Source: Desulfosarcina sp.
Lineage (GTDB): Bacteria > Desulfobacterota > Desulfobacteria > Desulfobacterales > Desulfosarcinaceae
Direction of reading: 5' to 3'
NCBI GenBank assembly: GCA_030145105.1
Contig: JAQYWF010000005.1
Coordinates: 1-37,097, forward strand
DNA length: 37,097 bases
Below, piece after piece: positions 8,062 to 37,044 of the stretch. How positions within the stretch are numbered: the first letter of the stretch is position 1; each line of letters opens with the position of its first letter. The translations under genes were made by a program, and so were the position numbers. The notes under the pieces were generated by a model. It did not search any database and had not been told where the DNA came from. It was given only the letters and a program-made list of their open reading frames with translations.

Positions 8062-8110
8062 CAGAGGTTCCTCCTCGTATTGATTTTGGCAAGGGTTAGC
8101 GATTCAAAGT

Positions 8111-9679: not shown

Positions 9680-9749
9680 AGTTACCTCCTTATCAGCTAC
9701 CGGTTAATGATTGAGGTGTACTACAGCAATGCGGTGGTTGATTGTGCAT

Positions 9750-9775
9750 GTGACAGGGCGAAAAGCCCCGGTCAC
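9750..9775 (-). promoter_or_regulatory. Leader hairpin upstream of acsD
   Basis: GTGAC-a-GGGC-GAAAA-GCCC-cg-GTCAC pairs into a nine-bp interrupted stem about 70-95 bases before the acsD TTG. No T-run follows in the minus direction. It would lie in the acsD mRNA leader if transcription starts at the promoter near 10055. Confidence 0.4.
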
Positions 9776-9824
9776 AAAATGAAAAACTCAGGCCCCCTTT
9801 CGTTTAAGTATTTTTTATATATAG

Positions 9825-9842
9825 TATCTACAGCGGTAGATA
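9825..9842. promoter_or_regulatory. Perfect dyad upstream of acsD, possible operator
   Basis: TATCTAC-AGCG-GTAGATA is an 18-bp dyad with perfect seven-base arms. It lies next to a TATATATA-rich stretch about 150 bases before acsD. It could be a regulator binding site for the acs operon; no known consensus was recognised. Confidence 0.4.
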
Positions 9843-9886
9843 AAAAGCCGTGGGAGAGAATAGGCGGGTATAGGATAGGGTTGCGG

Positions 9887-10078
9887 TCAGTGTGATGGAT
9901 CGTTTTCTTTTTCATGCAGCACAACATCGTCAAAACAGCCCTCTGGTACGCAAATGATGACTAATTTGTCAGCCGGTAAAACAGATTGTATTTTGTTGCG
10001 AAAGGGCCACTGGGGCCGAGATGGCCTCCCGCTTCCCAAAGGCGGAAAACCAAGGATTATTCTTATAGGTTGAATGGT
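9887..10078 (-). other. Open, protein-like stretch in the acsD leader (63 codons, no clear start)
   Basis: Read on the minus strand this stretch is open for 63 codons and looks protein-like: ...LGFPPLGSGRPSRPQWPF, KLVIICVPEGCFDDVVLHEKE, ending NDPSH-stop. There is no ATG or GTG start and no ribosome site; the only usual alternative is a TTG at 10039. It overlaps the predicted promoter at 10062. It may be a gene remnant, a leader peptide with a rare start, or chance. It shares no obvious similarity with neighbours. The remainder of the 9680-10230 gap holds the promoter, dyad and hairpins listed separately. Confidence 0.25.
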
Positions 10079-10089
10079 TTATTTGTCAA
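10062..10089 (-). promoter_or_regulatory. Sigma-70-like promoter for the acsD-acsE operon
   Basis: On the minus strand, TTGACA (10089-10084) is followed by a 16-base spacer and TATAAG (10067-10062), one base from the TATAAT consensus. The predicted start near 10055 would leave a leader of about 375 bases before acsD. It lies after the acsV stop, so acsD-acsE could be transcribed separately from the two upstream genes. Confidence 0.5.
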
Positions 10090-10154
10090 TAGAGGAGTGG
10101 GATTAAATCCCAATTTCCTACTATATTGTCTTCAATACGCAACGGGCATCGACA

Positions 10155-10175
10155 GCCGGTAAAACACCTACCGGC
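10155..10175 (-). other. Hairpin downstream of acsV
   Basis: GCCGGTA-N7-TACCGGC is a perfect seven-bp stem about 55 bases after the acsV stop codon. It has no T-run on the minus strand, so it would be at most a weak or Rho-assisted 3' end. Confidence 0.3.
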
Positions 10176-10230
10176 AGAACCGCTGTTATCCTTTATAGTT
10201 ATGACCATATGCGCGTCTAACAGGCCCCGG

Positions 10231-12177: not shown

Positions 12178-12204
12178 GAAAAAATCCTTTGATTATGGAA
12201 TATA

Positions 12205-12269
12205 GGAATTGGGGGATTGAGGAATAGAAGGAATGTTGTCTTTTTGATATTTTAATTCCCCAATTCCTG
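12205..12269. repeat. Imperfect inverted repeat between acsV and the CoA-transferase gene
   Basis: AGGAATTGGGG (12205-12215) pairs with CCCCAATTCCT (12259-12269). The surroundings are simple aattcctcaatt-like repeats. It fills the 106-base spacer. It could fold in the mRNA, but lacks a clean T-run on the minus strand. Confidence 0.5.
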
Positions 12270-12283
12270 AATTCCTCAATCTC

Positions 12284-14164
12284 TCAATTGGTTTTAATGT
12301 CGTCAAACCGGCAACTCAAGGCGGCCATGCCGTCTTCCATGGCGGTGAACACGTGCACCGGCAGGCTGTTGAACAGGCTGATCATGCCCTGGTTGTCCGG
12401 TGCCGTATACGCGGTAAAGCCGGCAATGCCGTTGTCCCGGGCCCCTTCGAAGAGCTTTTTCATCAACCGCTTGCCAAGTCCCTTGCCCTGCCAGGTGCCG
12501 CTGACGGAGAATGCTACCTCGGCCAGGTTGCAGGACGGATCCAGCAGGTACTCGCCGATGCCCACCACCTTGCCGAAGCCAAACTCGCCGACCACCGCCA
12601 AAATGGTGAGATTTTCGATGTAGTCGACCTGGGATACCGCTCCCACATCGTCGGTGACGAAACTGGTCTTCTCATGAAAAAAGCGTGAGACAATATCGTC
12701 CTTGTCCAGGGTGTAAAAATGCTCCTGAATCCGCCGCTCGTCGACCGGTTTGGCCGGCCGGATGGTTATCGTTTGGCCCTCGATTTCAAGCGTCTCTTCC
12801 AGGCGGAGGGGATAAACGCCGTGCAGGGAGCCTTTCACCGTTCGTTCGGCGCCGATCAGGTTCAGCCGCTTGGCCTGGTGCAACAGTTCATCCCGAAAAT
12901 CCGGGTGGGCGATGCTGATCATGGCCATGGCCCGCTCCTGGAAACTTTTGCCGAACAGGTTCACGACACCGAATTCGGTGGCCACGTAATGGACGTCGGC
13001 CCGGGGCACCACGACGGCAGTGTCGCTCAGCATGGGAACGATGCGGCTTTTTTCCCCACTCTCGGCGGTGGCGGGAAGCATGATGATGCTGCGTCCCCCC
13101 TCGGACTGAAAGGCGCCTCGAATGAAATCGAGCATGCCGGTGACACCGGAAAAGTTGTTGAACTCCAGGGCGTCGGCGGCCACCTGGCCGGTCAGGTCCA
13201 TGGCCATGGCGACGGACAATGAGACCATTTTGTTGTGGGCGGCGATGACAGCCGGCGCGTTGACCACATCCGACGGGTGAAATTCAATCGCCGGGTTATC
13301 GTTGATAAATTCGTAAAGGCTGGGCGATCCGATGGCGCTGCTGGCCACCATTTTCCTGTTGTTCAACCCTTTACGGCGATTGGTGATCACCCCCCGGGCA
13401 AACAGGTGCATGATTTCGTTGGTCATAAACTGGGTGTGAATGCCCAGATCGCTTTTGTCCGAAAGGGTCATCAAGGTTGCCTGGGGAGCCGTACCCGGAC
13501 TGATTTGAAGCGTGGAACCATCCTCGATGAGCCGGGCAATCAGCTGTGCGATGGTGTCGGCTGCCTCGGATTCAGGGACGGCCGGCAGGGTTAGGAGGGG
13601 CTCATGCTTTTCAACCACGAGGTGGACGTCGTTGACGTGAATGAAACTGCGGCCCAGCACCCGGGGCATTTCCGGGTTCACCTGGACGATGACCAGATCC
13701 GCGGAGCTTGCCGCCGCCAGGGTAATGTCCACGGAAACCCCCAGGCTCATCCAGCCGAAATCGTCGGGCGGCGTCGCCTGGATCAGGGCCACGTGGATAG
13801 GCATGCGGCGGCTTTTGAACAGCCGGGGCACGGCCGACAGATTCAGCGGCGTAAGAAAGCGGGCCTGTTCGGCCAAGTGGCTTGATTTTGCCGAGCCTGT
13901 ATAAAATGATCGAATGTTCAGACGTTGGCCCCGGGTGCGGTTGGCGATCAGCGAGAGCGGGGCGGTTTCCAGTGACATGAGCCGGACGATCTCCAGATCG
14001 GTGAACCAGGCGGTCGCTTCGGCCAGGGTTTTTACCAGATGCTGGGGTTCCCCGCAGGACGAACCGATAAACACCCGCTGACCGGGTCGGATATGCCCGA
14101 TGGCATCTTCGGCCGTGCATCGTTTCTGCACGTAGTTGTCCGCCCAGTATAAATTCCCCGCCAT
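12284..14164 (-). CDS. Acetyl-CoA hydrolase/CoA-transferase fused to a GNAT acetyltransferase
   Basis: A bifunctional protein of 626 residues. Residues 1 to about 430 are an acetyl-CoA hydrolase/transferase (Cat1-like) domain, recognisable by FIGSSCGEPQHLV near the N-terminus and the C-terminal ATEFGVVNLFGKSFQERA block. Such enzymes move CoA between acetate and another acid, or hydrolyse acetyl-CoA. From about 465 a GNAT domain follows (ITIRPAKPVDERRIQEHFY, VGIGEYLLDP, and the acetyl-CoA loop QGKGLGKRLMKKL), so it may acetylate a protein or small molecule. The combination is a known but poorly characterised fusion family. The start ATG 14164 follows GGGGAG. It opens the minus-strand series ending in acsE, suggesting exchange of acetate with the acetyl-CoA handled by CODH/ACS (inference). 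Confidence 0.85.
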   Translation of the reverse strand: MAGNLYWADNYVQKRCTAEDAIGHIRPGQRVFIGSSCGEPQHLVKTLAEATAWFTDLEIVRLMSLETAPLSLIANRTRGQRLNIRSFYTGSAKSSHLAEQARFLTPLNLSAVPRLFKSRRMPIHVALIQATPPDDFGWMSLGVSVDITLAAASSADLVIVQVNPEMPRVLGRSFIHVNDVHLVVEKHEPLLTLPAVPESEAADTIAQLIARLIEDGSTLQISPGTAPQATLMTLSDKSDLGIHTQFMTNEIMHLFARGVITNRRKGLNNRKMVASSAIGSPSLYEFINDNPAIEFHPSDVVNAPAVIAAHNKMVSLSVAMAMDLTGQVAADALEFNNFSGVTGMLDFIRGAFQSEGGRSIIMLPATAESGEKSRIVPMLSDTAVVVPRADVHYVATEFGVVNLFGKSFQERAMAMISIAHPDFRDELLHQAKRLNLIGAERTVKGSLHGVYPLRLEETLEIEGQTITIRPAKPVDERRIQEHFYTLDKDDIVSRFFHEKTSFVTDDVGAVSQVDYIENLTILAVVGEFGFGKVVGIGEYLLDPSCNLAEVAFSVSGTWQGKGLGKRLMKKLFEGARDNGIAGFTAYTAPDNQGMISLFNSLPVHVFTAMEDGMAALSCRFDDIKTN

Positions 14165-14791: not shown

Positions 14792-15886
14792 GTGAAAAGA
14801 CGAGAATTTATTAAAAAAGCTGGTGCTGGTGCTATTGCTGCTGGAGCCGTGATTGCAGGTGCTCCTGCGGTACATGCAAAAAAGACGATAGACATTACAA
14901 TGGTTGCTACGTGGGGTCGAGATTTCCCCGGCCTGGGGACGGGGGCGCAACGTTTTGCAAAGCGATTGTCCGATATGACCGATGGTCGTATGAAAGTGAA
15001 CTATTTTGCCTCTGGTGAACGGGTAAAGGCATTCGATTCCTTCGATGAGGTCGCCTCGGGCAATGCACAGATTTATCATGCCGCCGAATACTATTGGAAA
15101 GGCAAGCACCCTGGTTTTCCTTTTTTCTGTTCTGTTCCTTTTGGACTAACCTACACCGAATTTAACGCCTGGATTCGCTTCGGCGGCGGTCAGGAACTAT
15201 GGGATGAACTGGGTGCCGAATTTGGCGTCAAAGGCTTGATGTGCGGCAATACCGGCTCGCAGATGGGCGGATGGTTTCGCAAGGAAATCAACTCTGTCGA
15301 TGACCTGAAGGGGCTCAAAATGCGTATTCCCGGCCTTGGCGGCGATGTCATGGCCAAGCTGGGCGCTTCCCCGGTTTCCCTTCCCGGTGGCCAGATTTAT
15401 GAAAACCTGATTTCCGGATCAATTGATGCGACGGAGTGGGTCGGCCCCTGGAATGATGGATTCATGAAGTTCTACGAAGCCGCCAAGTATTACTACTACC
15501 CGGGCATGCATGAGCCGGGGTCAATGCTGTGTATCGGCTTGAATAAAAAATGGTGGGATGGCCTTTCAAAATCCGACCAATTGATTATTGAAGCTGCCTC
15601 ATCCATGGAAAACGATGTCATGATGGCTGAATTCAATGCGAAAAACGGAGCGTCCCTTGCCAAGCTGGTCACCGATCAAGGCGTACAACTACGTGAATTT
15701 AATGATGATATATACGATGCTTTTGGTAAAGCATCTGCGGAAGTATATGCAGAGACAAGAAAACATAGTAAACTGGCAGCAAAAATATATGACAGTTTTG
15801 CCGACGCACGCAAAGAGGTGGGAAGCTGGATGAAGATCTCCGATCAGGCCTACCTTAACCAGCGTAACCGTGTGCTTGCTTTCTGA
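14792..15886 (+). CDS. dctP: TRAP transporter periplasmic solute-binding protein (DctP, TakP-like)
   Basis: Captures a carboxylate in the periplasm and delivers it to the DctQM membrane unit. The 364 residues start at GTG 14792, just after AAGGAGGAATACT. The signal is of Tat type: KRREFIKKAGAGAIAAGAVIAGAPAVHA, with likely cleavage after about residue 28. The segment MRIPGLGGDVMAKLGASPVSLPGGQIYENLISG, then IDATEWVGPWND and YYYYPGMHEPGS, matches the TakP branch, which binds 2-oxo acids such as pyruvate in characterised members. The exact ligand here is not known. A relic dctQ lies before it; a hairpin and the functional dctQ and dctM follow. Confidence 0.92.
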   Translation: MKRREFIKKAGAGAIAAGAVIAGAPAVHAKKTIDITMVATWGRDFPGLGTGAQRFAKRLSDMTDGRMKVNYFASGERVKAFDSFDEVASGNAQIYHAAEYYWKGKHPGFPFFCSVPFGLTYTEFNAWIRFGGGQELWDELGAEFGVKGLMCGNTGSQMGGWFRKEINSVDDLKGLKMRIPGLGGDVMAKLGASPVSLPGGQIYENLISGSIDATEWVGPWNDGFMKFYEAAKYYYYPGMHEPGSMLCIGLNKKWWDGLSKSDQLIIEAASSMENDVMMAEFNAKNGASLAKLVTDQGVQLREFNDDIYDAFGKASAEVYAETRKHSKLAAKIYDSFADARKEVGSWMKISDQAYLNQRNRVLAF

Positions 15887-15912
15887 TCGATACCTAAACG
15901 TCTCTCATTTAA

Positions 15913-15943
15913 AATATGGTACCCCCTGGGGTACCATATTTTT
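15913..15943 (+). terminator. Hairpin with T-run after dctP (attenuating terminator)
   Basis: AATATGGTACCCC and GGGGTACCATATT form a 13-bp near-perfect stem followed by TTTTT including the stem end. Placed between the binding-protein gene and the permease genes, it probably lets dctP be expressed above dctQM, as is common in such operons (inference). Confidence 0.7.
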
Positions 15944-16028
15944 CGTCTATGGTGGACGTTCCAAATAACCAATTCAGCTGTCCGGTTTCGTACCGCCGCA
16001 CAATCACATTATATCTACTACCTCACAT

Positions 16029-17117
16029 ATGAACAGCCCACAACTTATGAGCTCATCAGACACCATCGATACCAATGATTTATCAACCACAGCTATGGAA
16101 AACGATGCTTCAGGCCATAAAGTCATCATTTTGGTGGTACGAACATTTGCAGTATCGATTGTCGCGATCATGCTGCTCTTTCTGTTTAACAACTACCTGA
16201 ATTTCTGGCGGCAATGGCCTGGATTGCCATCTTTTTTTTCACACCAGGGCTGGTTTGGCATGCAAGCCCTAAGCACCCCTCTCGATAATGGTCAGATTGC
16301 AAAAGGGTGGCTTCAGCTTCTGAGCTATGTAGGCGCGGTTGCGCTAGTTGTCCTTTATGTCCTCCGGACTCGCCAACGGCCCTTGCGCGTGGATGCTGCT
16401 TTACTGTCCGGATTTGCCGCCTATATCATTCGTGCGGCCTTTTGGGTCGTATTAATTATAGGCTTAGTCGACATACTCATCTCTTTTCTTAGGGTCGAGA
16501 ACCTGCTGTCACCACTGGTTGGTGATGAGTTAACCGAAGCCCTTGGGCGCCCCCAATTTCGTGGCCTTTATGTGCACTATCCCTTGATCCTTCTATCGTT
16601 TGTCATCGCTATTTTTAATCGGTCGCTGGGATTTACCTGGTTGGCCTTTCTGGTCGTACTGGCAGAGTTTCAGATTGTTATTTCCCGATTTGTTTTTTCC
16701 TACGAACAGCCGTTCATGGGGGATCTCGTGCGCTTCTGGTATGCGGCATTATTTCTTTTTGCCAGTGCCTATACGTTGGTTCATGAAGGACATGTTCGTG
16801 TCGACGTGCTTTATTCTCGTTTCGGTAAACGCAGCAAAGCATGGACCAATACGGTCGGCACATTGCTGTTGGGCCTGCCATTGGGGGGGATTATCCTCAT
16901 GACCGGCATGTGGGATAAAACGAGCAGTATCAACAGCCCGCTGTACAGTTTCGAAGTTTCACAATCCGGTTATGGATTGTATGTGAAGTACCTGATGGTT
17001 GGTTTTCTAGCCGTTTACGCGGTGTCCATGATCATACAATTTTCCAGTTACCTGCTCGACAATATCGCTGACCTCCGTCAGGAACCAGGTGGTGATCAGT
17101 TAGCCGGTAAGTCCTAA
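16029..17117 (+). CDS. dctQ: TRAP transporter small permease, enlarged (DctQ-like)
   Basis: The small membrane subunit that pairs with DctM. The DctQ signature lies in the C-terminal half: FSYEQPFMGDLVRFWYAALFLFASAYTLVHEGHVRVDVLYSRF (about 220-260), then LLLGLPLGGIILMTGMW. At 362 residues it is about twice a usual DctQ. The first 200 residues add several extra hydrophobic helices (IILVVRTFAVSIVAIMLLFLF, LLSYVGAVALVVLYVL, AAFWVVLIIGLVDILISFL). The start is uncertain: no ribosome site precedes ATG 16029, and the first 25 residues are polar (SSSDTIDTND). It is 28 bases before dctM. The added helices may be a lineage feature of TakP-type systems. Confidence 0.85.
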   Translation: MNSPQLMSSSDTIDTNDLSTTAMENDASGHKVIILVVRTFAVSIVAIMLLFLFNNYLNFWRQWPGLPSFFSHQGWFGMQALSTPLDNGQIAKGWLQLLSYVGAVALVVLYVLRTRQRPLRVDAALLSGFAAYIIRAAFWVVLIIGLVDILISFLRVENLLSPLVGDELTEALGRPQFRGLYVHYPLILLSFVIAIFNRSLGFTWLAFLVVLAEFQIVISRFVFSYEQPFMGDLVRFWYAALFLFASAYTLVHEGHVRVDVLYSRFGKRSKAWTNTVGTLLLGLPLGGIILMTGMWDKTSSINSPLYSFEVSQSGYGLYVKYLMVGFLAVYAVSMIIQFSSYLLDNIADLRQEPGGDQLAGKS

Positions 17118-17145
17118 AACGATACAAAATAATAAGGATCACTAC

Positions 17146-19806
17146 ATGGAAGTAGTCTTTATCGCTATTCTCCTTTTAATGATGATGGTTGCGCTTTCTT
17201 CCGGTTACCCGGTCGCCTTCTCATTGCCGGGAGCCGCCATTTTGTCGATTGGCTTGGCAGCGTTAGGTGGGTATCTGTTTGCTGGAGACCCCAGCGCCTT
17301 CTTCGTAGAAGGCGGCCCCTTAACGTGGCTCAATGCCGGCGTGACCAATTTTCGAAGTCTCTATTGGAATGTCGAACGAGATACGCTGATAGCGGTTCCA
17401 TTGTTTATCTTCATGGGCATTATGCTGCAGCGTTCCAAGATCGCAGAAGATCTTCTGGTTTCGATGGCCCAACTGTTTGGACCGGTACCCGGAGGGTTGG
17501 GAATCTCCGTTGTCCTTGTCGGTGCCTTGCTGGCGGCGACGACCGGAATCGTTGGGGCAACGGTCATTGCCATGGGGTTGATTTCACTTCCGGCAATGTT
17601 GCGCAACAATTATTCTAAACCCTTGGCAACGGGCACGATTTGTGCTTCGGGCACGCTCGGCCAGATCATTCCCCCCTCTATTGTTCTGATTATCCTTGCC
17701 GACCAGTTGGGCGGTGCTTCCGATCAGGCCAGTACGATCCGCAAAGCCGCTTATAAGGCTGCAACCGGCGAATTCAGTATGCCTTCGGTACTGGATGTCA
17801 CCTCCACCAGCGCCGGTGAAATGTTTATGGGGGCCCTCGTGCCTGGTTTGGTACTGGTAGGATTGTATATCATGTATATCCTGATGGTCGCCTTGTTTCG
17901 GAAAGGGTCCGCGCCGCCGGTACCCTATGAAGGCAATTGGGATCTAACATTCGCCAAACGTGTCGTGTTGGCTTTGGCACCCCCGTTGACCCTCATTCTT
18001 CTGGTGCTCGGTTCGATCATACTGGGCGTGGCCACGGTTAACCAGGCCGGTGCGGTGGGCGCCGTTGGCGCCATGATCATGGGGGGGTATCGCCTTGCCG
18101 AAGGTCAACGCAACGCCTATTACCCGGCAATTCTGGCCGTCGTCTCAACCATTGTCATTGCGATTGTACTCGCCTTTTATGACCTCAACGTCAAAAGTAT
18201 CAAGACGGGGGATGCCATCGGTCTCTTCCTGGCCGCGGTTGCTGTTACCGGGCTGTTGATTGCCGTGGCCTGGAGTACCTGGCGAATATATAAAATTGAA
18301 GATACCCTCAACTCGGTCATGGTTGAAACGGCCAAAACGACATCCATGGTTTTTATTATTCTGATTGGTGCCGCCATGTTGACCGCTGCCTTTCGTGGTT
18401 TTGGCGGGGAAGAATTGGTCAAGCATTTTTTAACCAATCTGGAAGGTGGATTCTGGATCCAATTTATGGTCGTCATGGCGGTGATGTTCGTTCTCGGTTT
18501 TTTTATCGATTTTCTCGAAATAGCCGTCGTCGTCGTTCCCATTGTCGCCCCCATTCTGCTGGCCGACCCGGGTGCCAATGTGACCGCCGTGTGGTTTGGC
18601 GTGATGGTGGGTCTTAATCTTCAGACTTCATTTCTGACGCCGCCCTTTGGTTTTTCTCTGTTTTACCTTCGTGGCGTCGCCCCCCCCATTGTAAAAACAC
18701 TGCATATTTATCGTGGATCTATTCCCTTTATTGGATTGCAGGTGGTTGCATTGGTGATAGTTGCGGTTTCGCCTGCGATAGTGAACTACCTGCCCACGCG
18801 TATTTCGCTGTCTTCCGATACAGCGCCACCGCCGATCAATCCGCGAATGCAATCCTGCATTGAAGAATATCTCTTTGATCACTATGATGATCAAGGTGAG
18901 CAACTGCGCGGCGATGTCAAAACCTTAGGTGCCTTGGAACTCAGTGTTTTACCGGAAAAACGACAGAAAGCGTTGAACGAAAGCCTGGATCGGACCTTGA
19001 ACACATTCGATTTAGTCGCCACGGTTCGCATGGCTGAAGAACATCGTGTCGGCTATTCATCTGAATACCGCCCACAGCATCAATTTGTTCGCCGTTTGCA
19101 GTCAGATATGCGTCTTATCCACTTGAAAGTCGTTAAATTGAAGCAGGTTTTGACGAGGACGTCTCGGAGCGAGTCCCCGGACAGGGATGAAATCACCCGA
19201 ATTGAAGCAGCAATCGAGAAGGCAGAAGCGGCGATAACAGACCTTCAAAACCAGATTCCCGAGAGCTGGGCTGGCGTCAACAAACGTTATGCGGATTTGG
19301 AAAAAGCCGAAAGTCAAGCGCGCCGTGATTACCGCAACAACGTCGACCAGGCGTATAAAACGATTGCGGAATTACGAGAGGTCATCGATGGCGCAGATGA
19401 ACTGGCCGGTCTTGAACAACAAATGACTGCTCTCGAAAAGGCAGTTGTCAATGAGCCGGCTAAAGTTGCTTTGGAACGGATCAAACAATCAGAATCGGCT
19501 CTTGGTAAGGTTGCCGGCACAAGCGCCATCAAGTCCAAGCTTTCCAAAGCGCGCAGGGCGCTTAAAGGAAATCAACCAGATCCGGAAAAGGCAATTCAGC
19601 TTCTGAGCGAGGGCTTAACGTTATATGCTGCTGAAGTCGATTGGCGTCGTCGCGCAGCAGTTGAAATCGCCCCAGCGCTTGCTTCCTATGACAATGCCAT
19701 CAAAGATTCCATTGGTCTTCGATTGCAGCGACGGTTGACGGATGATCAGGTCAAAGCGGTTGCCAGTTGCTTATCGGAACACCGCGATTATTCATTGCAA
19801 TTCTGA
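17146..19806 (+). CDS. dctM: TRAP transporter large permease (DctM) with long C-terminal coiled-coil domain
   Basis: The ion-driven transport subunit of the TRAP system. Residues 1 to about 547 are membrane-embedded: GYPVAFSLPGAAIL, VPLFIFMGIMLQRSKIAEDLL, GALLAATTGIVGATVIAMGLISLPAML, GTICASGTLGQIIPPSIVLIIL, and late helices MVVMAVMFVLGFFIDFLEIAVVVVPIVAPI and NLQTSFLTPPFGFSLFYL. Ordinary DctM has about 430 residues; this one has 886. The last 340 or so residues are soluble and rich in heptad-like charged helices (LEKAESQARRDYRNNVDQAYKTIAELREVI, LEQQMTALEKAV, SKLSKARRALKGN). ATG 17146 follows AAGGATCACTAC. The extra part has no recognised family. It may be a cytoplasmic or periplasmic regulatory stalk, or a fused neighbouring gene. 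A strong terminator follows. Confidence 0.9.
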   Translation: MEVVFIAILLLMMMVALSSGYPVAFSLPGAAILSIGLAALGGYLFAGDPSAFFVEGGPLTWLNAGVTNFRSLYWNVERDTLIAVPLFIFMGIMLQRSKIAEDLLVSMAQLFGPVPGGLGISVVLVGALLAATTGIVGATVIAMGLISLPAMLRNNYSKPLATGTICASGTLGQIIPPSIVLIILADQLGGASDQASTIRKAAYKAATGEFSMPSVLDVTSTSAGEMFMGALVPGLVLVGLYIMYILMVALFRKGSAPPVPYEGNWDLTFAKRVVLALAPPLTLILLVLGSIILGVATVNQAGAVGAVGAMIMGGYRLAEGQRNAYYPAILAVVSTIVIAIVLAFYDLNVKSIKTGDAIGLFLAAVAVTGLLIAVAWSTWRIYKIEDTLNSVMVETAKTTSMVFIILIGAAMLTAAFRGFGGEELVKHFLTNLEGGFWIQFMVVMAVMFVLGFFIDFLEIAVVVVPIVAPILLADPGANVTAVWFGVMVGLNLQTSFLTPPFGFSLFYLRGVAPPIVKTLHIYRGSIPFIGLQVVALVIVAVSPAIVNYLPTRISLSSDTAPPPINPRMQSCIEEYLFDHYDDQGEQLRGDVKTLGALELSVLPEKRQKALNESLDRTLNTFDLVATVRMAEEHRVGYSSEYRPQHQFVRRLQSDMRLIHLKVVKLKQVLTRTSRSESPDRDEITRIEAAIEKAEAAITDLQNQIPESWAGVNKRYADLEKAESQARRDYRNNVDQAYKTIAELREVIDGADELAGLEQQMTALEKAVVNEPAKVALERIKQSESALGKVAGTSAIKSKLSKARRALKGNQPDPEKAIQLLSEGLTLYAAEVDWRRRAAVEIAPALASYDNAIKDSIGLRLQRRLTDDQVKAVASCLSEHRDYSLQF

Positions 19807-28287: not shown

Positions 28288-29049
28288 ATGGATGGAATTA
28301 GTGGAAAAGTTGCTTTAATTACAGGAAGTTCTCGCGGTATTGGCAAGGCGATCGCGCAGAAGCTGGCTCATACGGGTGCTGATATTGCGATCACTTACAG
28401 AAATGATCGCGGCTCCTCAAGAGCCAAAGCCGAAGCACTCCAGGTTGAAATTGAGCGAAATAACTGCAGATCTATATTGATTCAATCGGATATTTCAAAA
28501 AAAGATTCGGTAAAGGCAATGATCCAGGCCGTATCGGATGGGCTCGGTAAACTTGACTACCTTATCCTAAATGCCGCCAAGGCGCCCTTCAAACCGATCG
28601 AGAAGCTTTTTGAGAGGGAACTGAAACAACTTGTAGAAACGAATTATCTTGGTAATATCTTCTGTATCCAGCAGGCGATCCCGCTGCTGGAGAAAAATCA
28701 CGGCAAGATAATATTTTTATCAAGTCTGGGGAGCCGTTTTTTCAACCCGTCCTACCCGCTTGGGAGTATGAAGGCTGCTATGGAAGCAGTGGTCAGGGAC
28801 TGCGCCGAAAGCCTGAGGGAAAAAAATATATCTGTCAATGCGGTATGCGGTGGAATCGTTAAGACTGATTCCTTTAAGGTGTACCGGCAATACTGGGACC
28901 ATCTCGAGAAACTTCCGGACGACCTTGTTGTAGAAACCTCCGAAATCGCGGACGTGGTTGCCTTTTTGTGTAGCCCTTTAAGCAAGGGAATCAACGGTCA
29001 GACGATCATTGTCGACAAGGGGCTCAGCAGCACCCTAATCAGGCAGTGA
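28288..29049 (+). CDS. SDR-type enoyl-ACP reductase, FabL-like
   Basis: A short-chain dehydrogenase of 253 residues, probably reducing the enoyl-ACP double bond with NAD(P)H. TGSSRGIG at the N-terminus is the nucleotide-binding loop, and LILNAAKAPF replaces the usual NNAG. The C-terminal half follows FabL (enoyl reductase III) more closely than FabG: SSLGSRF, ISVNAVCGGIVKTDSF and INGQTIIVDKGLS. The catalytic pair reads Y156-PLGSM-K162, a Y-x5-K spacing. FabG has Y-x3-K and FabI/FabL have Y-x6-K, so the exact activity is uncertain. ATG 28288 follows GGAG at ten bases. It is the first gene of the cluster, so complete reduction of the chain may be possible. A ketoreductase role remains an alternative. 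Confidence 0.75.
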   Translation: MDGISGKVALITGSSRGIGKAIAQKLAHTGADIAITYRNDRGSSRAKAEALQVEIERNNCRSILIQSDISKKDSVKAMIQAVSDGLGKLDYLILNAAKAPFKPIEKLFERELKQLVETNYLGNIFCIQQAIPLLEKNHGKIIFLSSLGSRFFNPSYPLGSMKAAMEAVVRDCAESLREKNISVNAVCGGIVKTDSFKVYRQYWDHLEKLPDDLVVETSEIADVVAFLCSPLSKGINGQTIIVDKGLSSTLIRQ

Positions 29050-29121: not shown

Positions 29122-29685
29122 ATGAAGAATAATCTTGTATCGGAAGCGACCGTTTTAAATGAGCTCAAAAAAGCCCTCGTTGAAACCCTTCAGGTGGATG
29201 AGGGCGTGATCAAGCCGGAATCGTCATTCACCGATGATCTGGGTGCGGAATCACTCGATTTTCTTGATATCAACTACAGGCTTGAACAGGCCTTTGGCAT
29301 CAAGATGGCGCGCCACTTTTTGCTGGAACACATCGAAGAGATGTTCGGTGAAGGGACGGCCATTGATGACGAGGGTCGCTTGACCGAAAAAGCCGTAACC
29401 CTGCTGAATCTGCGCTACGGTGGAAATATTCCTAAGATTGAAGCCGGCATTGATATGGATGAAGTTCCCGCGATGTTAACTGTCGGGCCTTTTGCTAAAG
29501 GTGTTTTGGATATACTCAACACGCTGCCGGATCAATGTCCGCAATGCAGCAGCAGTGACTGGAAATCGGAAGATGGTATGAAAGTGAGCTGTGGGTCATG
29601 CGGTGAAAGCGCTGCCTACACGAATGGTGACGACCTGATCGTAGCCTGGCTGACTAACGTACAACAAGAGAAAAACATTTTTTAA
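29122..29685 (+). CDS. Acyl carrier protein with C-terminal zinc-ribbon extension
   Basis: Carries the growing acyl chain on phosphopantetheine attached to S44 in DDLGAESLDFLDINYRLEQAF. The first 100 residues are an ordinary ACP fold with a slightly long helix 2-3 region (HFLLEHIEEMFGEG). An ordinary ACP has about 80 residues; this one has 187. The added part begins near residue 100 (RYGGNIPKIEAGIDMDEVPAML). It includes a four-Cys module, CPQC...CGSC, at about 139-158, that looks like a zinc ribbon or rubredoxin-like knuckle. It stands second in the cluster and 13 bases before the first ketosynthase. The AcpS at 34874 is its likely activator. The role of the ribbon is unknown; it may dock the ACP to a ketosynthase. 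Confidence 0.85.
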   Translation: MKNNLVSEATVLNELKKALVETLQVDEGVIKPESSFTDDLGAESLDFLDINYRLEQAFGIKMARHFLLEHIEEMFGEGTAIDDEGRLTEKAVTLLNLRYGGNIPKIEAGIDMDEVPAMLTVGPFAKGVLDILNTLPDQCPQCSSSDWKSEDGMKVSCGSCGESAAYTNGDDLIVAWLTNVQQEKNIF

Positions 29686-29698: not shown

Positions 29699-30994
29699 AT
29701 GAATCCCGATACCAAAAAATCCAGAGTGGTAATAACCGGATATGGAATGATTACCCCATTGGGGAGGAATTGTGAAGAAACCTTCAGCAATTGCAGTCAT
29801 GGCAGATCCGGTATTGATTATATTCAATCATTCGACACGTCCGGGCTTCCATGCCACATTGGCGGTGAAGTCAGTGATGCGTGGATAGAAAAACTTGAAA
29901 ACAAGGACGCGCAGAAATATCGAAAATATTCATCCCGCGGCCTCAGGCTGATGCAGATCGCAACTGCCGAGGCGGCTGCACAAGGAGGCCTTTCCAGCAT
30001 TGAAGACAGGCATGCCATCGGCGTGGCACTGGGTTCGCACGGAGAAAACCCCAAGCCTCAGGATATGCATCATTTGCATCAATTCCTCGATGATAACGGG
30101 AATTGGGATATACAGGGGCTGATAAAGGACGGTGGATATCGCTATTGGAATTTTTTTCGTAGGAAACCCGACGTGGCCTCAAGTATACTTGCAACTGCAT
30201 TTGACTGCAAGGGACCCAACCTGACGATCGTGTCGGCTTGCGCGGCGGGGTCACAGGCGATCGGAGAGGCCCTGAGACTGATAGAAGATCAGCAGTGCAA
30301 GGTCATGATCGCCGGCGGTTGTGACGCATTGCTTGATATTATCGGGATGGCCGGGTTTCTGCTTCTAAAAGCCTTATCTGAAAAACATCCAACCCCTCAG
30401 GCGGCTTCACGACCCTTTGACCGCCGACGGAATGGTTTTGTCATGTCCGAGGCTGCCGGAGCGCTCATTCTTGAGGAACGTGAACATGCCTTGGAGAGAG
30501 GCGCCACGATACTTGGCGAACTGAAAGGGTATGGCGCATCAGCCGATGCTTACCGGATTACCGATCCCCACCCCAAGGGACTGGGTGCAATCATTGCCAT
30601 GAAATCAGCCCTTGACGATGCCGGTGTGGACATAGCGGATATTGACTATATCAATGCACATGGGACCTCAACCAGCCAGAACGATTTAACAGAAACAAGG
30701 GCGATAAGACAAATATTCGGAGAAAGGGCTGACGCGATTCCGGTAAGCTCAAATAAATCCATGCTTGGCCATAGCATAGCGGCTGCCGGCGCTATAGAAT
30801 GCATCCTGTCACTAATGGGAATCAACAGCTCAACGATCCTACCGACGATCAATCAGGAATTCAAGGACCCAAAATGTAATCTTGATTATGTGCCCAATAA
30901 ATCAAGAACAAAAGAACACCATACGGTCCTTTCCAATTCCTTTGGGTTCGGCGGGCAAAATGCCAGCCTCTGCATCAGTCGCTATAATGACTAA
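29699..30994 (+). CDS. Beta-ketoacyl-ACP synthase, FabF type (KS 1, complete triad)
   Basis: Extends the acyl chain by condensing acyl and malonyl-ACP units. The 431 residues carry the complete Cys-His-His triad: C181 in VSACAAGSQAIGEAL, H321 in NAHGTSTSQND and H358 in SMLGHSIAAAGA. The C-terminal NSFGFGGQNAS loop is normal. It has a cluster-specific insertion around 105-140 (PQDMHHLHQFLDDNGNWDIQGL). No ribosome site is obvious before ATG 29699. The next gene encodes a KS-like protein lacking the catalytic Cys, which suggests a KS/chain-length-factor heterodimer (inference). Confidence 0.92.
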   Translation: MNPDTKKSRVVITGYGMITPLGRNCEETFSNCSHGRSGIDYIQSFDTSGLPCHIGGEVSDAWIEKLENKDAQKYRKYSSRGLRLMQIATAEAAAQGGLSSIEDRHAIGVALGSHGENPKPQDMHHLHQFLDDNGNWDIQGLIKDGGYRYWNFFRRKPDVASSILATAFDCKGPNLTIVSACAAGSQAIGEALRLIEDQQCKVMIAGGCDALLDIIGMAGFLLLKALSEKHPTPQAASRPFDRRRNGFVMSEAAGALILEEREHALERGATILGELKGYGASADAYRITDPHPKGLGAIIAMKSALDDAGVDIADIDYINAHGTSTSQNDLTETRAIRQIFGERADAIPVSSNKSMLGHSIAAAGAIECILSLMGINSSTILPTINQEFKDPKCNLDYVPNKSRTKEHHTVLSNSFGFGGQNASLCISRYND

Positions 30995-31100: not shown

Positions 31101-32369
31101 ATGCAAGATAAAGTGGTAATAACAGGTGTCGGTCTGGTCAGCGCTTTAGGCAACGACCTCGATACCACCTGGAAAAACCTGCTCAACGGCCAATCGGGCA
31201 TCAGCAGGATAGATGAATTCGATGTTGAAGGGTTCCACTGTCAACATGGCGCATTCGTTCGCGGCCTGGATCCTGATGAACTGGGGGTCCGCGGAAAAGG
31301 CGGCCGCATCATGGACCGTCACGCGTATATGCTTTTGAAAAGCACACGAGATGCATTTCGATATTCCTCGATTGATCTTGAAGTGACACCGCCGGAACGT
31401 GTAGGCTATTTTGCTGCCATGGGGATGGTTGATTATCATGTCGATGATCTTTTGGAGGCGGTGATCAATGCAACCGACGATGATGGAAAACTGAACTACG
31501 AAAAGTTCTTTTCCGGCACTTACCAAGATATTCATCCGCTATGGCCGCTTTCCATGCTGAACAATATTCATTTCTGTCAGGTAGCGATAGACTTGGGGAT
31601 AAAAGGCGAAAGTATCGTATTCTGCCCTCACTCCCCCGCTGCGGTGGATGCAGTGATGGAAGCCTATCATACGGTATTGGGCAATAAAGCTGATTTGGCC
31701 CTAGCCGGAGGCGTCAGCGAAAATATATCTCCCATGAGCCTGACTCGTGCATCACTGGTCAATCTTTTAAACAACGGCAGCAGCGGCTGTCACCCCTTTG
31801 AGACGCCTGCAACCGGGACCATCCTCGGCGAGGGTGCCGGCGTTTTGGCGCTTGAGCGGCTGTCATCGGCCAAGCAAAGAGACCTGCCAGCACTGGCCTG
31901 GATTAAGGGCTATGGAGCCTCCTTTGGACGAGATGGCGAAGACTGCAGCCCATCCGAAAAGGCGATCTCACTGTCGATCAATGACGCCCTGACAAGGTCA
32001 GGGCTGGGCCCTGGCGAGATTGATCTCATCATCGCCCATGGGGATGGAACTTTCGACGGGGACCGAAACGAGCTCAAAGCGATCACCGGTGTATTTGAAC
32101 ATTGTATCGACGATCTGCACGTCTATACATCCAAGTCAGCGCTTGGGCATTCACTCTCAGGCGCCTCGGCCATGGACATGGTGCTGGGAACCTGCATGCT
32201 GAAGCATTCAATCATCCCTGCAATCGGCCATCGGTATGAGGCTGATAAAAGAATCGCAAAAAACCTCGTCAGAGAAAAACCGGTAAGCAGGGAGATCAAG
32301 AACATACTGATCAATTCTCAAAGCTACGAAGGGCAATGCGCCTCAATCATATTGGGGAAGGTGGAGTAG
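31101..32369 (+). CDS. Ketosynthase-like protein without catalytic Cys (chain-length-factor-like, KS-beta 1)
   Basis: A thiolase-fold protein of 422 residues that begins like a FabF (KVVITGVGLVSALGND). By eye the active-site Cys aligns with Pro176 in IVFCPHSPAAVDAV, with a Cys one residue earlier. The two His motifs stay (H313 in IIAHGDGTFDGD, H350 in SALGHSLSGASA). The usual GFGGQN loop is altered to INSQSYEGQCAS. Proteins of this kind (KS-beta/CLF in type II PKS and aryl-polyene clusters) pair with an active KS and set chain length. It stands 106 bases after KS 1 and four bases before the first dehydratase. It could instead be an inactive paralogue. Confidence 0.85.
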   Translation: MQDKVVITGVGLVSALGNDLDTTWKNLLNGQSGISRIDEFDVEGFHCQHGAFVRGLDPDELGVRGKGGRIMDRHAYMLLKSTRDAFRYSSIDLEVTPPERVGYFAAMGMVDYHVDDLLEAVINATDDDGKLNYEKFFSGTYQDIHPLWPLSMLNNIHFCQVAIDLGIKGESIVFCPHSPAAVDAVMEAYHTVLGNKADLALAGGVSENISPMSLTRASLVNLLNNGSSGCHPFETPATGTILGEGAGVLALERLSSAKQRDLPALAWIKGYGASFGRDGEDCSPSEKAISLSINDALTRSGLGPGEIDLIIAHGDGTFDGDRNELKAITGVFEHCIDDLHVYTSKSALGHSLSGASAMDMVLGTCMLKHSIIPAIGHRYEADKRIAKNLVREKPVSREIKNILINSQSYEGQCASIILGKVE

Positions 32370-32373: not shown

Positions 32374-32826
32374 ATGCGGTTTTTATTTTACGACCGGGTT
32401 GACCATATCGAAAAAAACAGCACGATTACAGGCGTCAAGACATTTACGCTTTCAGAGGAGTTTCTAAGAAATCATTTCAGGAAAAAAGCCATCGTTCCAG
32501 GAGTAATCTTTATAGAGGCCATGGCCCAGCTTTTAGGCTGGCTCGTCGTTTACTCACACGATTTTAAACTCTCATCTGTCATGTCCCTGGTCCAGGACGT
32601 CACGGTCCCTCCAGATCGACGTCCGGGGTTCAGCGCGAAAATCCATGCAGAGCTCATCTCCACATCACAAAGGGACTCGCTGGGAAGGGCATGGATCACG
32701 GATAACGGCCAAGAGATCGCCCGCGTGGACCGCATCATTTACAGCCATGTCAGGCACGTAAATACCGAAGCGCTTAAACGTCTTTTCTACTACTATAGCG
32801 GAATTGAAATCGAGAAGGACGCATAG
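32374..32826 (+). CDS. 3-hydroxyacyl-ACP dehydratase, FabZ-like hotdog (DH 1)
   Basis: Removes water from 3-hydroxyacyl-ACP to give an enoyl chain. The 150 residues form a single hotdog fold with H34 in NHFRKKAIVPGVIFIEAMAQLLGW and E48 in EAMAQ. The usual HFPxxPxxPG is kept only in part (HFRKKAIVPG). It abuts the next gene with no gap and follows the KS-beta gene by four bases, so translation is probably coupled. The second dehydratase (35301) has its catalytic pair at the same residue numbers. Confidence 0.88.
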   Translation: MRFLFYDRVDHIEKNSTITGVKTFTLSEEFLRNHFRKKAIVPGVIFIEAMAQLLGWLVVYSHDFKLSSVMSLVQDVTVPPDRRPGFSAKIHAELISTSQRDSLGRAWITDNGQEIARVDRIIYSHVRHVNTEALKRLFYYYSGIEIEKDA

Positions 32827-34128
32827 ATGAGACAAGAAAGAAGGGTTGTGGTTACGGGCCTTGGCCTGGCAACACCGCTTGGGCTTGATCTTGAAGCGTC
32901 TTGGCAAAAAGCACTCGCCGGCGTCTCCGGTATAAAGAAACTGTCTTTGCCGTTAAGCGCTAAATCTCCCGTGCAGGCAGTCGGTTCGGTGTCTGCGGAT
33001 GACTGGGAAGAAATAAAAAAGTATTGCAAGGCCGATCGTATTAAAGAAGGAGAACGCCGCACGCTGTTTGCACTCTGGTCAGCCAAAGAAGCCATCAATG
33101 ACGCCGGTCTCATGCCCGACGCAGCCCAAAAGGTCAACCGAGACCGTTTCGGTGCCATCATTGGCACCGGGGTCAGCATAAACCAGCTTGAAGATATTCA
33201 CCGATGGGTTGGGAAAAATAAAGCATTTGACCTGAAGCAGTTCGGTATGGAATCAGAGCGTGTACACAGTGATTCGATCATGCGATATAACACCAACCGG
33301 CCGGCAGCACTAATTGCCGAAACGTTTGTATTATCGGGTTATAACGCCAGCATCACCACGGCTTGTGCATCCTCAGCACATTCGATCGGTACAGGATACA
33401 GGCTGATAAAAAGAGGCGATGCCGACATGATGTTAGTCGGAGGCGCTGACGCAATGATCAATCCTGTGGGGCTGGTATTCTTCGTTCTGCTGAGAGCAGC
33501 GGCAACATCCGCAGATACGCCTGAAGAAGTCAGCCGACCCTTTGATCGAAAGCGTTCAGGGCTTGTAATGGCAGAGGGGGCTGGAATGGCGATACTCGAG
33601 GAAGAAAGGCATGCATTGAAAAGAGGCGCCTCGATCTACGCCGAAGTTGCCGGATATGGGTCTTCCATGGATGCCTATAAAGCCACTGCGCCCCACCCCA
33701 AAGGAATTGGTGCCCAGCAGTCCATGCAAGCGGCGCTTGTCGATTCAGGGCTTGATCCAGATGAGATTGATTATATCAATGCCCATGGTACCAGCACCAA
33801 ACTGAATGATACCGCAGAGACAGCGGCAATAAAAAAGGTATTTGGCGACCATGCCTACAGACTTTCGGTAAGTTCAAGCAAATCCATTATCGGTCACCTG
33901 TTGGCGGCTTCAGGAGCTGCCGAGTTTGTCTTGACCACGCTGTCGGTAAACCGGGACGAGATTCATCCAACCATCAACCTGAAACATGCCGATCCGAAAT
34001 GTGATCTCGACTATGTGCCCAATGTTAAAAAACAGACGACGGTGCGGGCGGCATTATCCAACTCCTTTGGATTTGGCGGACAGAATGCAACCGTTATCAT
34101 AAAAAAATACAAAGAAGATGCCCAATGA
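32827..34128 (+). CDS. Beta-ketoacyl-ACP synthase, FabF type (KS 2, complete triad)
   Basis: A second condensing enzyme of 433 residues with C180 in TTACASSAHSIGTGYRLI, H320 in NAHGTSTKLND and H357 in SIIGHLLAASGA, plus the normal NSFGFGGQNAT loop. It is most like KS 1 in the C-terminal half (DPKCDLDYVPN in both), so the two probably arose by duplication. Its stop overlaps the ATG of fabG (ATGA). The second KS-like, Cys-less partner lies at 35755. Confidence 0.93.
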   Translation: MRQERRVVVTGLGLATPLGLDLEASWQKALAGVSGIKKLSLPLSAKSPVQAVGSVSADDWEEIKKYCKADRIKEGERRTLFALWSAKEAINDAGLMPDAAQKVNRDRFGAIIGTGVSINQLEDIHRWVGKNKAFDLKQFGMESERVHSDSIMRYNTNRPAALIAETFVLSGYNASITTACASSAHSIGTGYRLIKRGDADMMLVGGADAMINPVGLVFFVLLRAAATSADTPEEVSRPFDRKRSGLVMAEGAGMAILEEERHALKRGASIYAEVAGYGSSMDAYKATAPHPKGIGAQQSMQAALVDSGLDPDEIDYINAHGTSTKLNDTAETAAIKKVFGDHAYRLSVSSSKSIIGHLLAASGAAEFVLTTLSVNRDEIHPTINLKHADPKCDLDYVPNVKKQTTVRAALSNSFGFGGQNATVIIKKYKEDAQ

Positions 34129-34877
34129 AAATCGATCTAGCGGATAAGATTGCACTGGTTACCGGAGGCGCCAGAGGTATCGGCCGTGAAACCAGCCTGG
34201 TTCTGGCCGAAGCCGGGGCGACCGTCATCATTAATTATAAAAAATCGTCAGAAAAGGCTGAGGCGGTCAGTAACGCAATCAGCGAACGCGGCGGCGCATG
34301 TTGTATCTTCCAAGCGGATGTGTCCGATCCGCAAGAGACCACCCGTTTATTCGACCATATCAGGGACAAATATGGAAAGATCGATATCCTGGTCAACAAC
34401 GCCGGGGTGATCAAGGACAATTTGCTCCTTTCCATGCGGCTTTCCGAATGGGACGCGGTCATCGATACGAATCTCAAAGGGGCCTTTCTATGTGCCCAAA
34501 AGGCTGCTGAGATGATGATTGTCAGGCATTCAGGAAAAATCATCAACATGTCGTCGATCGCATCGCAAAAGGCGGTCAGGGGGCAATCCAACTATGCGGC
34601 GTCCAAAGGCGGACTGGTCTCATTTACCCGGGCCTGCGCCGTTGAACTGGCAGGCAAGGGTATCCAGGTAAATGCCGTATTGCCGGGACTGATTCAGACC
34701 GACATGACCCGGCGAACGATCAAACGGGCCGGCGACAAAATTGACGGGATGATCCCGGCCGGGAGAATTGGGACACCGTCGGATGTGGCCAATTTAATTG
34801 TCTTTTTGGTTTCGGACAAAGCCGACTATATCACCGGTCAAGCGATTCTCGTCGACGGGGGCATGAGCGTCTCATGA
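34125..34877 (+). CDS. fabG: 3-oxoacyl-ACP reductase (FabG type)
   Basis: Reduces 3-oxoacyl-ACP to the 3-hydroxy form with NADPH. The 250 residues have every SDR hallmark: TGGARGIGRE, NNAG in ILVNNAGVIKDN, the catalytic Ser in NMSSIASQKA, Y-x3-K in NYAASKGGL, and the end ITGQAILVDGGMS. It overlaps the preceding KS 2 by four bases and the following acpS by four bases, which points to coupled translation. It is the ketoreductase of the cluster. Confidence 0.93.
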   Translation: MKIDLADKIALVTGGARGIGRETSLVLAEAGATVIINYKKSSEKAEAVSNAISERGGACCIFQADVSDPQETTRLFDHIRDKYGKIDILVNNAGVIKDNLLLSMRLSEWDAVIDTNLKGAFLCAQKAAEMMIVRHSGKIINMSSIASQKAVRGQSNYAASKGGLVSFTRACAVELAGKGIQVNAVLPGLIQTDMTRRTIKRAGDKIDGMIPAGRIGTPSDVANLIVFLVSDKADYITGQAILVDGGMSVS

Positions 34878-35272
34878 TAAAGATCCTCCAGGGCGTTGAT
34901 ATCGTAGAAATTGGCAAGTTTCGCAAGGTTTTTAGGAAAAGTGACGCCTTTGTGTCTGAAATATTCACCACCGCCGAGAGGCGCTACTGTGAGTCTAAAA
35001 AAGATCCCTTGCTTCATTTTGCGGGTCGATTCGCCTCTAAAGAGGCTACGCTGAAAGCCTTGGGGCTGGGGCTGACCGGGACCGGTATCGACAAGACCTT
35101 TCAAGAAATAGAGGTGGTCACCGGGCCATCGGGAAAGCCGTCGCTCTCATTAACCGGATGGGCCGGCAAAATAAGTCAAAAGAAAAAGATTGACCAACAT
35201 ACGATTTCGATCTCCCACTCAGGAAATTATGCCGTCTCGACAGTCATACTGATCGGCAGTGATAACCGATGA
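34874..35272 (+). CDS. acpS: Holo-ACP synthase (AcpS-type phosphopantetheinyl transferase)
   Basis: Attaches 4'-phosphopantetheine from CoA to the ACP serine. The 132 residues match the AcpS family: GVDIVEIGKF with the magnesium-binding Asp, FTTAERRYCESK, and FAGRFASKEATLKALGLGL with the FxxKEA motif, then TGPSGKPSLSL and ISISHSGNYAVSTVIL. It begins within the fabG stop (ATGA). A dedicated AcpS inside the cluster suggests that its ACP, with the zinc-ribbon tail, is not served well by the housekeeping enzyme (inference). Confidence 0.92.
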   Translation: MIKILQGVDIVEIGKFRKVFRKSDAFVSEIFTTAERRYCESKKDPLLHFAGRFASKEATLKALGLGLTGTGIDKTFQEIEVVTGPSGKPSLSLTGWAGKISQKKKIDQHTISISHSGNYAVSTVILIGSDNR

Positions 35273-35300
35273 TCGTTTAGCAGATGAAGGGAAGCTGGCC

Positions 35301-35753
35301 ATGCGCTATTTATTAGTCGATTATATCCATGCATATGAACCAGGGAAATCCATTGAGGGCATCAAGAATGTGGCCATGAGCGAGGACTACCTCGAGTTTC
35401 ACTTCCCCAATAATCCCATTATGCCCGGGGTGATGATGCTGGAGGCCTTCACCCAGCTTGCCGGATGGCTTGTGGCCGCATCGTCGGATTTCCAAAACTG
35501 GTTTCTTGTCAACACGGTTAAAAAATCAAGCTTCTATGGATTGGTTCTGCCTGGCGATCAGTTAAAACTATATGTGCAGCTCGTTGCTGAGGATGGTTCC
35601 GGGCAAATAACATTTAACGGGTTGGGATCGGTAAACGGCAAAAAAAAGGTCATGGCAGGATTTTCGGGGAAAGCGGTGCCCTTAGATGCGTTTGATGATC
35701 GTGAGGCTCAACAAGACTTTTTCAAAATTTTGACAAGGACTGCGAAAAGATAA
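35301..35753 (+). CDS. 3-hydroxyacyl-ACP dehydratase, FabZ-like hotdog (DH 2)
   Basis: The second dehydratase, 150 residues from ATG 35301. The ORF track starts at 35259, but GAAGGGAAG stands just before 35301 and MRYLLVDYIHAYEPG matches the start of the other dehydratase. The catalytic motif is complete: H34 in EFHFPNNPIMPGVMMLEAFTQ and E48. A conserved Trp-Leu follows (AGWLVAAS, as in DH 1 LGWLVVYS). The two dehydratases share length and motif position, so they are likely duplicates, perhaps working as a pair. It is one base before the last KS-like gene. Confidence 0.88.
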   Translation: MRYLLVDYIHAYEPGKSIEGIKNVAMSEDYLEFHFPNNPIMPGVMMLEAFTQLAGWLVAASSDFQNWFLVNTVKKSSFYGLVLPGDQLKLYVQLVAEDGSGQITFNGLGSVNGKKKVMAGFSGKAVPLDAFDDREAQQDFFKILTRTAKR

Positions 35754-35754: not shown

Positions 35755-37044
35755 ATGTCAAACCGAGATGTTCTGATTACAGGCGTAGGCCTTATTTCAC
35801 CCTTGGGCAAAAATACAGCGGAGAACTGGGCGAAGCTGAAAAAGCTTGAAACAGGAATCTGCCATTACCCAGGTGACGGTCTGCCTGAATTCATGCAATA
35901 TATTGGAAAAATAGATGATTATCATCTTCCGGACAGTATTTCCCCCAGGCAGCGGGGTCAGCTAAAGTTTTTAAACCGCGCGGCGCTGTTTGGTTTGAGT
36001 TCCGTCGATGAAGCCCTCCCATTGGAATCTACGCATTTAGATCATATTGAACCCGGCAGAAGATCGCTTTTTGTCGCCTCGGGCGAACATAATCAGATTG
36101 GCGCGGAGTTTATGTACCCGGCGATCAAGGAAACCCTCGGCAAGGAATGGAAGGATACGGACGGTGATAAATTTAACCGGTCGATGATGGATCGATTCAA
36201 TCCTTTTTTTCTGCTTGACTCCTTGCACAACAACCTGTTCAGTTTTATATCGGCCTATACGGGATTCATGGGTCCTGGTACCAGTTTGTCCAGTATGCCA
36301 CCATGCGGTAATCAGGCGTTGGCGCTCGCCTGCAGAGATATTAAACTAAACAAGGCCGATATCGCTGTAGCCTTGGGTTATGGCAGCTGGATCGCGGATA
36401 TCGCCCGCTATGAGCTGCAAGGCGTTGGCCGGCTGTCTGCCTGCAGCGCAGGCGCAGCTTCATACCGGCCCTTAAATGTGCGCAGAGATGGGTTCATAAC
36501 AGGCGAAGGTGGCGCCGCAATCGTTTTAGAGTCGGCCGAAAGTGCCAAAAGAAGAGGCGCCCAGGTGTTTGGAAAAGTGCTGGCAACAAGCAATTCATTT
36601 GCGTTGAACGAAGATGACAATACGGCCGTGCCGCCCATGGTCAACAACCGGAATATGGCCACAGCCATAAAGCGTTCAGGATGCAGTCAATCTGAGATCG
36701 CCTTTCTGATATCTCAGGGGGATGGCACCCAGGCGGGTGACCGTTCAGAGCTGGAATCGATCGGATCCGTATTGAGCGATCCATCTATCCCTGTTTGTGC
36801 GTTAAAGCCTTACACCGGCCATATGGGCCCTGCAAGTGATCTTGCCGAGATCATTTTTGGAATCTTGGCCGTGAAGGAGGGGTATATTCCGGCAACCCTT
36901 AATTTCACAGAAACGGAAAAAGCGTTCTCCAATCTGAATATTTCAGGTTCTCCTATAATGACTGAAAAAACGATCTTCCTGTCAACAAGCTATGGCGCAA
37001 GTGGCCAGGCTTCCACCGTTTTAATCGATGCCCGCAAAAGTTGA
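35755..37044 (+). CDS. Ketosynthase-like protein without catalytic Cys (chain-length-factor-like, KS-beta 2)
   Basis: A thiolase-fold protein of 429 residues starting like FabF (DVLITGVGLISPLGKN). By eye the catalytic Cys position falls on Pro182 in SSMPPCGNQALALACRDI; a Cys occurs two residues later. The first active-site His is replaced by Q321 in LISQGDGTQAGD, while H356 in YTGHMGPASD remains. The GFGGQN loop reads SYGASGQAS. It therefore cannot condense in the normal way and is probably the partner of KS 2. It is the most divergent of the four KS-fold proteins here. Confidence 0.85.
   Translation: MSNRDVLITGVGLISPLGKNTAENWAKLKKLETGICHYPGDGLPEFMQYIGKIDDYHLPDSISPRQRGQLKFLNRAALFGLSSVDEALPLESTHLDHIEPGRRSLFVASGEHNQIGAEFMYPAIKETLGKEWKDTDGDKFNRSMMDRFNPFFLLDSLHNNLFSFISAYTGFMGPGTSLSSMPPCGNQALALACRDIKLNKADIAVALGYGSWIADIARYELQGVGRLSACSAGAASYRPLNVRRDGFITGEGGAAIVLESAESAKRRGAQVFGKVLATSNSFALNEDDNTAVPPMVNNRNMATAIKRSGCSQSEIAFLISQGDGTQAGDRSELESIGSVLSDPSIPVCALKPYTGHMGPASDLAEIIFGILAVKEGYIPATLNFTETEKAFSNLNISGSPIMTEKTIFLSTSYGASGQASTVLIDARKS

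Follow-up and report, generated by a model that had tools for sequence, protein, structure and literature searches.

The analysed stretch of DNA (37,097 nucleotides, referred to below as the window) ends in a group of fatty acid synthesis genes on the forward strand, among them a gene for an acyl carrier protein (ACP) with a predicted zinc ribbon, here called ACPZn. The features of the locus are as follows.

28288..29049, + strand: SDR1, FabL-like short-chain reductase (motif YPLGSMK), directly upstream of ACPZn
29122..29685, + strand: ACPZn, predicted zinc-ribbon acyl carrier protein, 187 aa (PF00550 9.7e-8; orthologues with four invariant Cys; AF2 pLDDT 90.6)
29251..29253, + strand: Ser44 codon of ACPZn, predicted phosphopantetheine attachment site in DLGAESLDFLD (PF00550 match and invariance in orthologues)
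29308..29451, + strand: probable insertion between ACP helix II and helices III/IV, residues 63-110, also in ribbonless relatives (Foldseek and hhalign; weak at the sequence level)
29527..29619, + strand: C4 zinc-ribbon motif C139-x2-C142-x14-C157-x2-C160 with invariant W147, residues 136-166 (orthologue alignment, ribbon-family and structure matches)
29620..29682, + strand: conserved C-terminal helix (GDDLI..WL...Q), residues 167-187 (orthologue alignment and AF2)
29699..30994, + strand: KS1, FabF-type ketosynthase with catalytic C/H/H, directly downstream of ACPZn
31101..32369, + strand: CLF1, KS-beta-like, Ser at the catalytic Cys position (Ala in relatives)
32374..32826, + strand: DHx, FabA/FabZ-like hot-dog dehydratase
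32827..34128, + strand: KS2, FabF-type ketosynthase with C/H/H
34125..34877, + strand: FabG-type ketoreductase
34874..35272, + strand: dedicated AcpS-type phosphopantetheinyl transferase (PF01648 1.2e-17; TIGR00516 above cut-off)
35259..35753, + strand: FabZ-type dehydratase
35755..37044, + strand: CLF2, KS-beta-like, Pro at the catalytic Cys position (Ser in relatives); phyletic pattern matches ACPZn

From CLF1 onward the genes overlap or nearly touch, and neither CLF1 nor CLF2 has the catalytic Cys. Further upstream in the window, CODH/ACS subunits, a RACo-type activator and a second protein with a CdhD domain are encoded at 2333-14164, and a TRAP transporter comes next, at 14792-19806.

The reading frame of ACPZn starts with ATG, preceded by a Shine-Dalgarno-like AAGGAG, and residues 14-70 match the PP-binding family PF00550 at 9.7e-8, better than the curated cut-off. 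With this domain and a DSL-like motif (GAESLD) in which S44 is invariant, the protein has the features of a type II ACP, as the first-pass annotation had proposed for 29122-29685; the housekeeping ACP is encoded by a separate gene in the genomes searched. Judged from its sequence, ACPZn represents a genuine type of acyl carrier protein that has been conserved, and titles and abstracts of the literature on "zinc ribbon" and "acyl carrier protein" yielded no published zinc-ribbon ACP.

The whole protein contains four cysteines, arranged in the two pairs pointed out earlier, C139/C142 (CPQC) and C157/C160 (CGSC). All four, together with W147, are invariant across 31 aligned orthologues that share 47-70% identity with the window ACPZn over the aligned regions, and the same holds for G169, D170, L172, W176, L177 and Q181 near the C-terminus. 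Against this invariance, the ribbon region as a whole shows a mean pairwise identity of 56% among orthologues. The C4 motif was present at 55 of the 56 loci examined, with slightly varying spacing and with CxC as the first pair in three; the single exception is a distant carrier of 200 aa (L050), and L040, a locus whose ACP lacks the ribbon and is continuous with KS1, was left out of the count. Chance occurrence of the pairs was thereby ruled out, and the observation named beforehand as fatal to the ribbon proposal, cysteines that are unconserved in orthologues, did not materialise. Profile matches of the ribbon to several unrelated zinc-ribbon families were weak but consistent, all of them sub-threshold; comparison of the tail profile with the PDB gave weak matches alone (the best, at E 0.011, was a viral non-structural protein), and a Foldseek search of the isolated tail returned weak, non-significant matches that included many ribbons (TFIIB, TFS and ribosomal zinc-ribbon proteins). 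Together with the invariant CxxC/CxxC pattern and a confident AF2 model, the ribbon-family and Foldseek matches support the zinc-ribbon reading, and the C4 site most likely binds a structural zinc.

The AF2 model, built from the orthologue alignment, has a mean pLDDT of 90.6 and a pTM of 0.85, and ACP structures are its top Foldseek matches (best E 1.3e-3). The four-helix ACP fold was recovered in the model across an insertion: alignments of 120-124 columns with complete ACPs (about 78 aa) reached target TM-scores of up to 0.80, compared with about 0.67 for helices I-II alone. Since alignments that skip about 45 residues score higher than helices I-II by themselves, we read the ACP fold as split. 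In the model it is probably interrupted by an insertion of about 45 residues after helix II, and residues ~111-133 (the DMDEVPAMLTVGPFAKGVLDIL region) would then probably be ACP helices III/IV, an assignment that is not significant when compared by sequence alone. The description of a single tail of about 90 residues after the ACP domain is thus probably wrong; according to the Foldseek alignments the extra sequence would comprise the insertion (~63-110) and a C-terminal addition proper (~134-187), the latter probably consisting of the ribbon at 136-166 and a last helix at 169-184. The tail is predicted with high confidence in the full model (pLDDT ~94) and poorly when modelled alone (pLDDT 62.5, pTM 0.40), which would fit a tail that packs on the ACP body.

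Ribbonless relatives of 126-138 aa occur in the window's phylum (L044-L049). They match ACPZn by hhalign with an E of 6e-24 over residues 7-130, the insertion included, at about 40% profile identity, and like ACPZn they have neighbours that include FabG, AcpS, FabZ and KS. Unlike ACPZn they end after a helix IV-like segment, without the Cys ribbon and the C-terminal helix, and no SDR1 neighbour was seen. As the insertion is common to both, the ribbon and the last helix look like a gain to, or a loss from, a family of long ACPs. The ribbonless long ACPs in KS-rich clusters of this phylum (L044-L050; 126-138 aa, L050 200 aa) apparently form an unnamed carrier subfamily. At L040 (2549-4252), on a short MAG contig, the ribbon is missing and ACP residues 1-143 are joined in frame to KS1; the resulting 568-aa reading frame is a natural ACP-KS fusion or else an artefact of assembly.

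The triplet SDR1-ACPZn-KS1 was found in nearly all loci. In the window, as in many of the other loci, it is followed by CLF1, DHx, KS2, FabG, AcpS, FabZ and CLF2, and where the triplet stands alone the remaining cluster is at another place in that genome (ten such clusters read). The earlier expectation that the carrier sits beside dedicated KS pairs is therefore true in part: an active-site-complete FabF-type KS (and the SDR) always adjoins, but the two KS-beta-like genes are elsewhere in some genomes, though CLF2 was found, adjacent or not, in all 19 ACPZn genomes tested. The motif YPL-GS/T-MK (Y-x5-K) recurs in all SDR1 relatives viewed, with a spacing between those of FabG and FabL. From its gene content the cluster would encode a second, nearly complete type II fatty acid synthase with its own AcpS, by which ACPZn is putatively converted to the holo form.

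When 84,980 species genomes were scanned, in a search that reached close relatives only, 39 ACPZn loci were returned; nearly all of them carry the label Nitrospirota or Thermodesulfovibrionia. In a sample of 246 Nitrospirota genomes ACPZn was present in 17 and CLF2 in 15, all of them inside the ACPZn set (hypergeometric 4e-22 assuming independent genomes, a nominal value inflated by shared ancestry). CLF2 was missing from two ACPZn genomes, G339 and G528; both assemblies are small, and in both the ACP gene lies close to the start of a contig. Full-length ACPZn was found in just 2 further genomes out of 297 from the window's phylum, and in none of the listed genomes of its order. In a concatenated tree the window operon is nested among Nitrospirota loci as sister to L010 (support 0.98). 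Contamination of the contig was considered and set aside, because an HrpA-like gene upstream is typical of the window's order (27 of 30 genomes) and the contig hence looks native. A native-looking contig that carries an operon nested among Nitrospirota favours horizontal transfer, and the window lineage has probably acquired the operon in this way from outside its phylum. A second contig of the same bin (C422 of G000, locus L094) has an end that is 94.8% identical to the last 691 bases of the window; this near-repeat suggests a strain mixture in the assembly, with C422 probably a strain variant of the window locus.

The window contig stops just after CLF2, and C422 continues past the near-repeat into an LpxL-type gene. 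An LpxL-like acyltransferase gene directly follows CLF2 at L013, L017, L018, L020, L023, L027, L070, L074-L076, L079 and L080, and the lipid A acyltransferase family PF03279 was confirmed in all four that were scanned (L017, L018, L027, L080). Just beyond it lies lpxB at L074, L076, L079 and L080 (judged by the sequence start alone at L074 and L080), and waaA is likewise near the cluster end at L076 and L079. At L071, lpxB-lpxD is directly upstream of SDR1-ACPZn; at the triplet-only loci L004, L005, L007, L010 and L021, lpxD-fabZ-lpxA-lpxI is found a few kb (<9 kb) upstream, and kds genes are located within 9 kb of L011. These are raw neighbour counts, much of them common to related genomes, and do not represent as many independent events. 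The first-pass annotation had pointed neither to lipid A nor to the split fold. The adjoining LpxL gene is absent from the deep-branching L077, L082 and L083, and at L016 and L026 a condensation-domain-like protein takes its place. At L016, L026 and L080, condensation-domain (PapA-like) proteins and an unassigned protein of 225-355 aa adjoin the fatty acid cluster and possibly acylate its product further.

The best PDB sequence match of ACPZn is the specialised ACP RPA2022 of R. palustris (2kw2/3lmo), which we take to be an AcpXL. AcpXL is the rhizobial carrier of very-long-chain fatty acids for lipid A. RPA2022 has 94-101 aa in the PDB entries, and the match does not extend past query residue 65 (or 78, in the case of a variant). 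The AcpXL cluster combines a dedicated extra ACP with FabZ, two FabF and an LpxL-type acyltransferase (LpxXL/MsbB) (PMC11901934). ACPZn, too, is encoded with FabZ, a FabF pair and an LpxL-type acyltransferase, but its cluster differs from that of AcpXL by the KS-beta-like proteins, FabG, AcpS and the FabL-like SDR and has no alcohol dehydrogenase among its genes, and at 187 aa with a ribbon the protein is not the small ribbonless carrier of that system. On carrier architecture and gene content it falls outside the AcpXL group, and we propose that it works like AcpXL rather than being one. Metal ribbons are also known within acyl-transfer complexes of the thiolase fold, of the DUF35 or PhlB type; there the ribbon is on a separate OB-fold subunit, whereas that of ACPZn is on the carrier itself, and no sequence link between the two was found.

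Taking these observations together, we favour, at a probability of about 55%, the reading that a second type II synthase makes an unusual acyl chain for attachment to lipid A, that ACPZn is its dedicated, AcpXL-like carrier, and that the ribbon forms a docking surface. LpxL-family enzymes are used in pathways other than lipid A as well, which counts against this reading, and polyene clusters have KS/KS-beta pairs, dehydratases and an LpxL-family enzyme, which the ACPZn cluster recalls. An aryl-polyene-like or other type II polyketide synthase for a specialised lipid or pigment, in which ACPZn carries a polyene and the LpxL-type enzyme transfers it to a glycolipid other than lipid A, is a rival that we regard as unlikely: it would account for the two KS/KS-beta pairs, the two dehydratases, the LpxL-family enzyme and the condensation-domain-like proteins next to the cluster at L016, L026 and L080. 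On the other hand, the constant presence of the FabL-like reductase suggests saturation, lpxB, waaA or lpxD directly adjoin in several genomes, and the cluster genes examined included no recognisable ammonia lyase or MMPL exporter.

Clusters with several FabF genes, marked by radical SAM and phytoene-desaturase-like genes, were described in K. stuttgartiensis and D. psychrophila (PMC2649909), and the ribbonless long ACPs of the window's phylum sit in KS-rich clusters with FabG, AcpS and FabZ, so that the ACPZn cluster might be a branch of such clusters for anaerobic polyunsaturated hydrocarbon or ladderane-type (ladderane/PUHC) synthesis. The absence of both marker genes among the window cluster proteins scanned, and the different, lipid A-related gene context, make this very improbable. 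Slightly less improbable, though still quite unlikely, is that the C4 site senses redox state or metal (zinc or iron) and switches the carrier on and off instead of serving structure and docking. The invariance of the four cysteines would agree with a sensor, and iron is conceivable in a host that is probably anaerobic, given the CODH/ACS genes in the window; but invariant Cys and Trp amid drifting ribbon residues are the usual pattern of a structural ribbon, and no regulatory partner is visible.

For the AcpXL-like carrier the mechanism would be as follows. The two KS/KS-beta pairs, FabG, the two FabZ-like dehydratases and the dedicated AcpS would constitute the synthase, with the FabL-like SDR1 as its probable enoyl reductase, and the phosphopantetheine on Ser44 would hold the growing acyl chain, which is probably very long or otherwise unusual. 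Lipid A, or an outer-membrane glycolipid closely related to it, would then receive the chain from the LpxL-type acyltransferase encoded at the cluster end. The C4 zinc site is predicted to hold the conserved helix at the C-terminus to the body of the ACP, and ribbon and helix together would present a surface that the housekeeping ACP does not have and by which KS1, SDR1 and the acyltransferase may select their carrier. The ribbon itself may confer partner specificity, as suggested at first reading of the locus, which is a plausible idea. A tentative extension, which we consider rather doubtful, is that ACPZn represents a new carrier class, a split ACP in which ribbon and C-terminal helix serve as an addressing tag and separate a private lipid A synthase from housekeeping synthesis in Nitrospirota, with a lipid A chain that has not been described.

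If the lipid A reading is true, an unusual lipid A acyl chain is to be expected in Thermodesulfovibrionia and other Nitrospirota, and we found no description of such a chain in the literature. ACPZn, with its built-in metal domain and its co-occurrence with a second synthase, offers a direct test system for partner choice, by which acyl chains stay on the right assembly line in cells with several ACPs.
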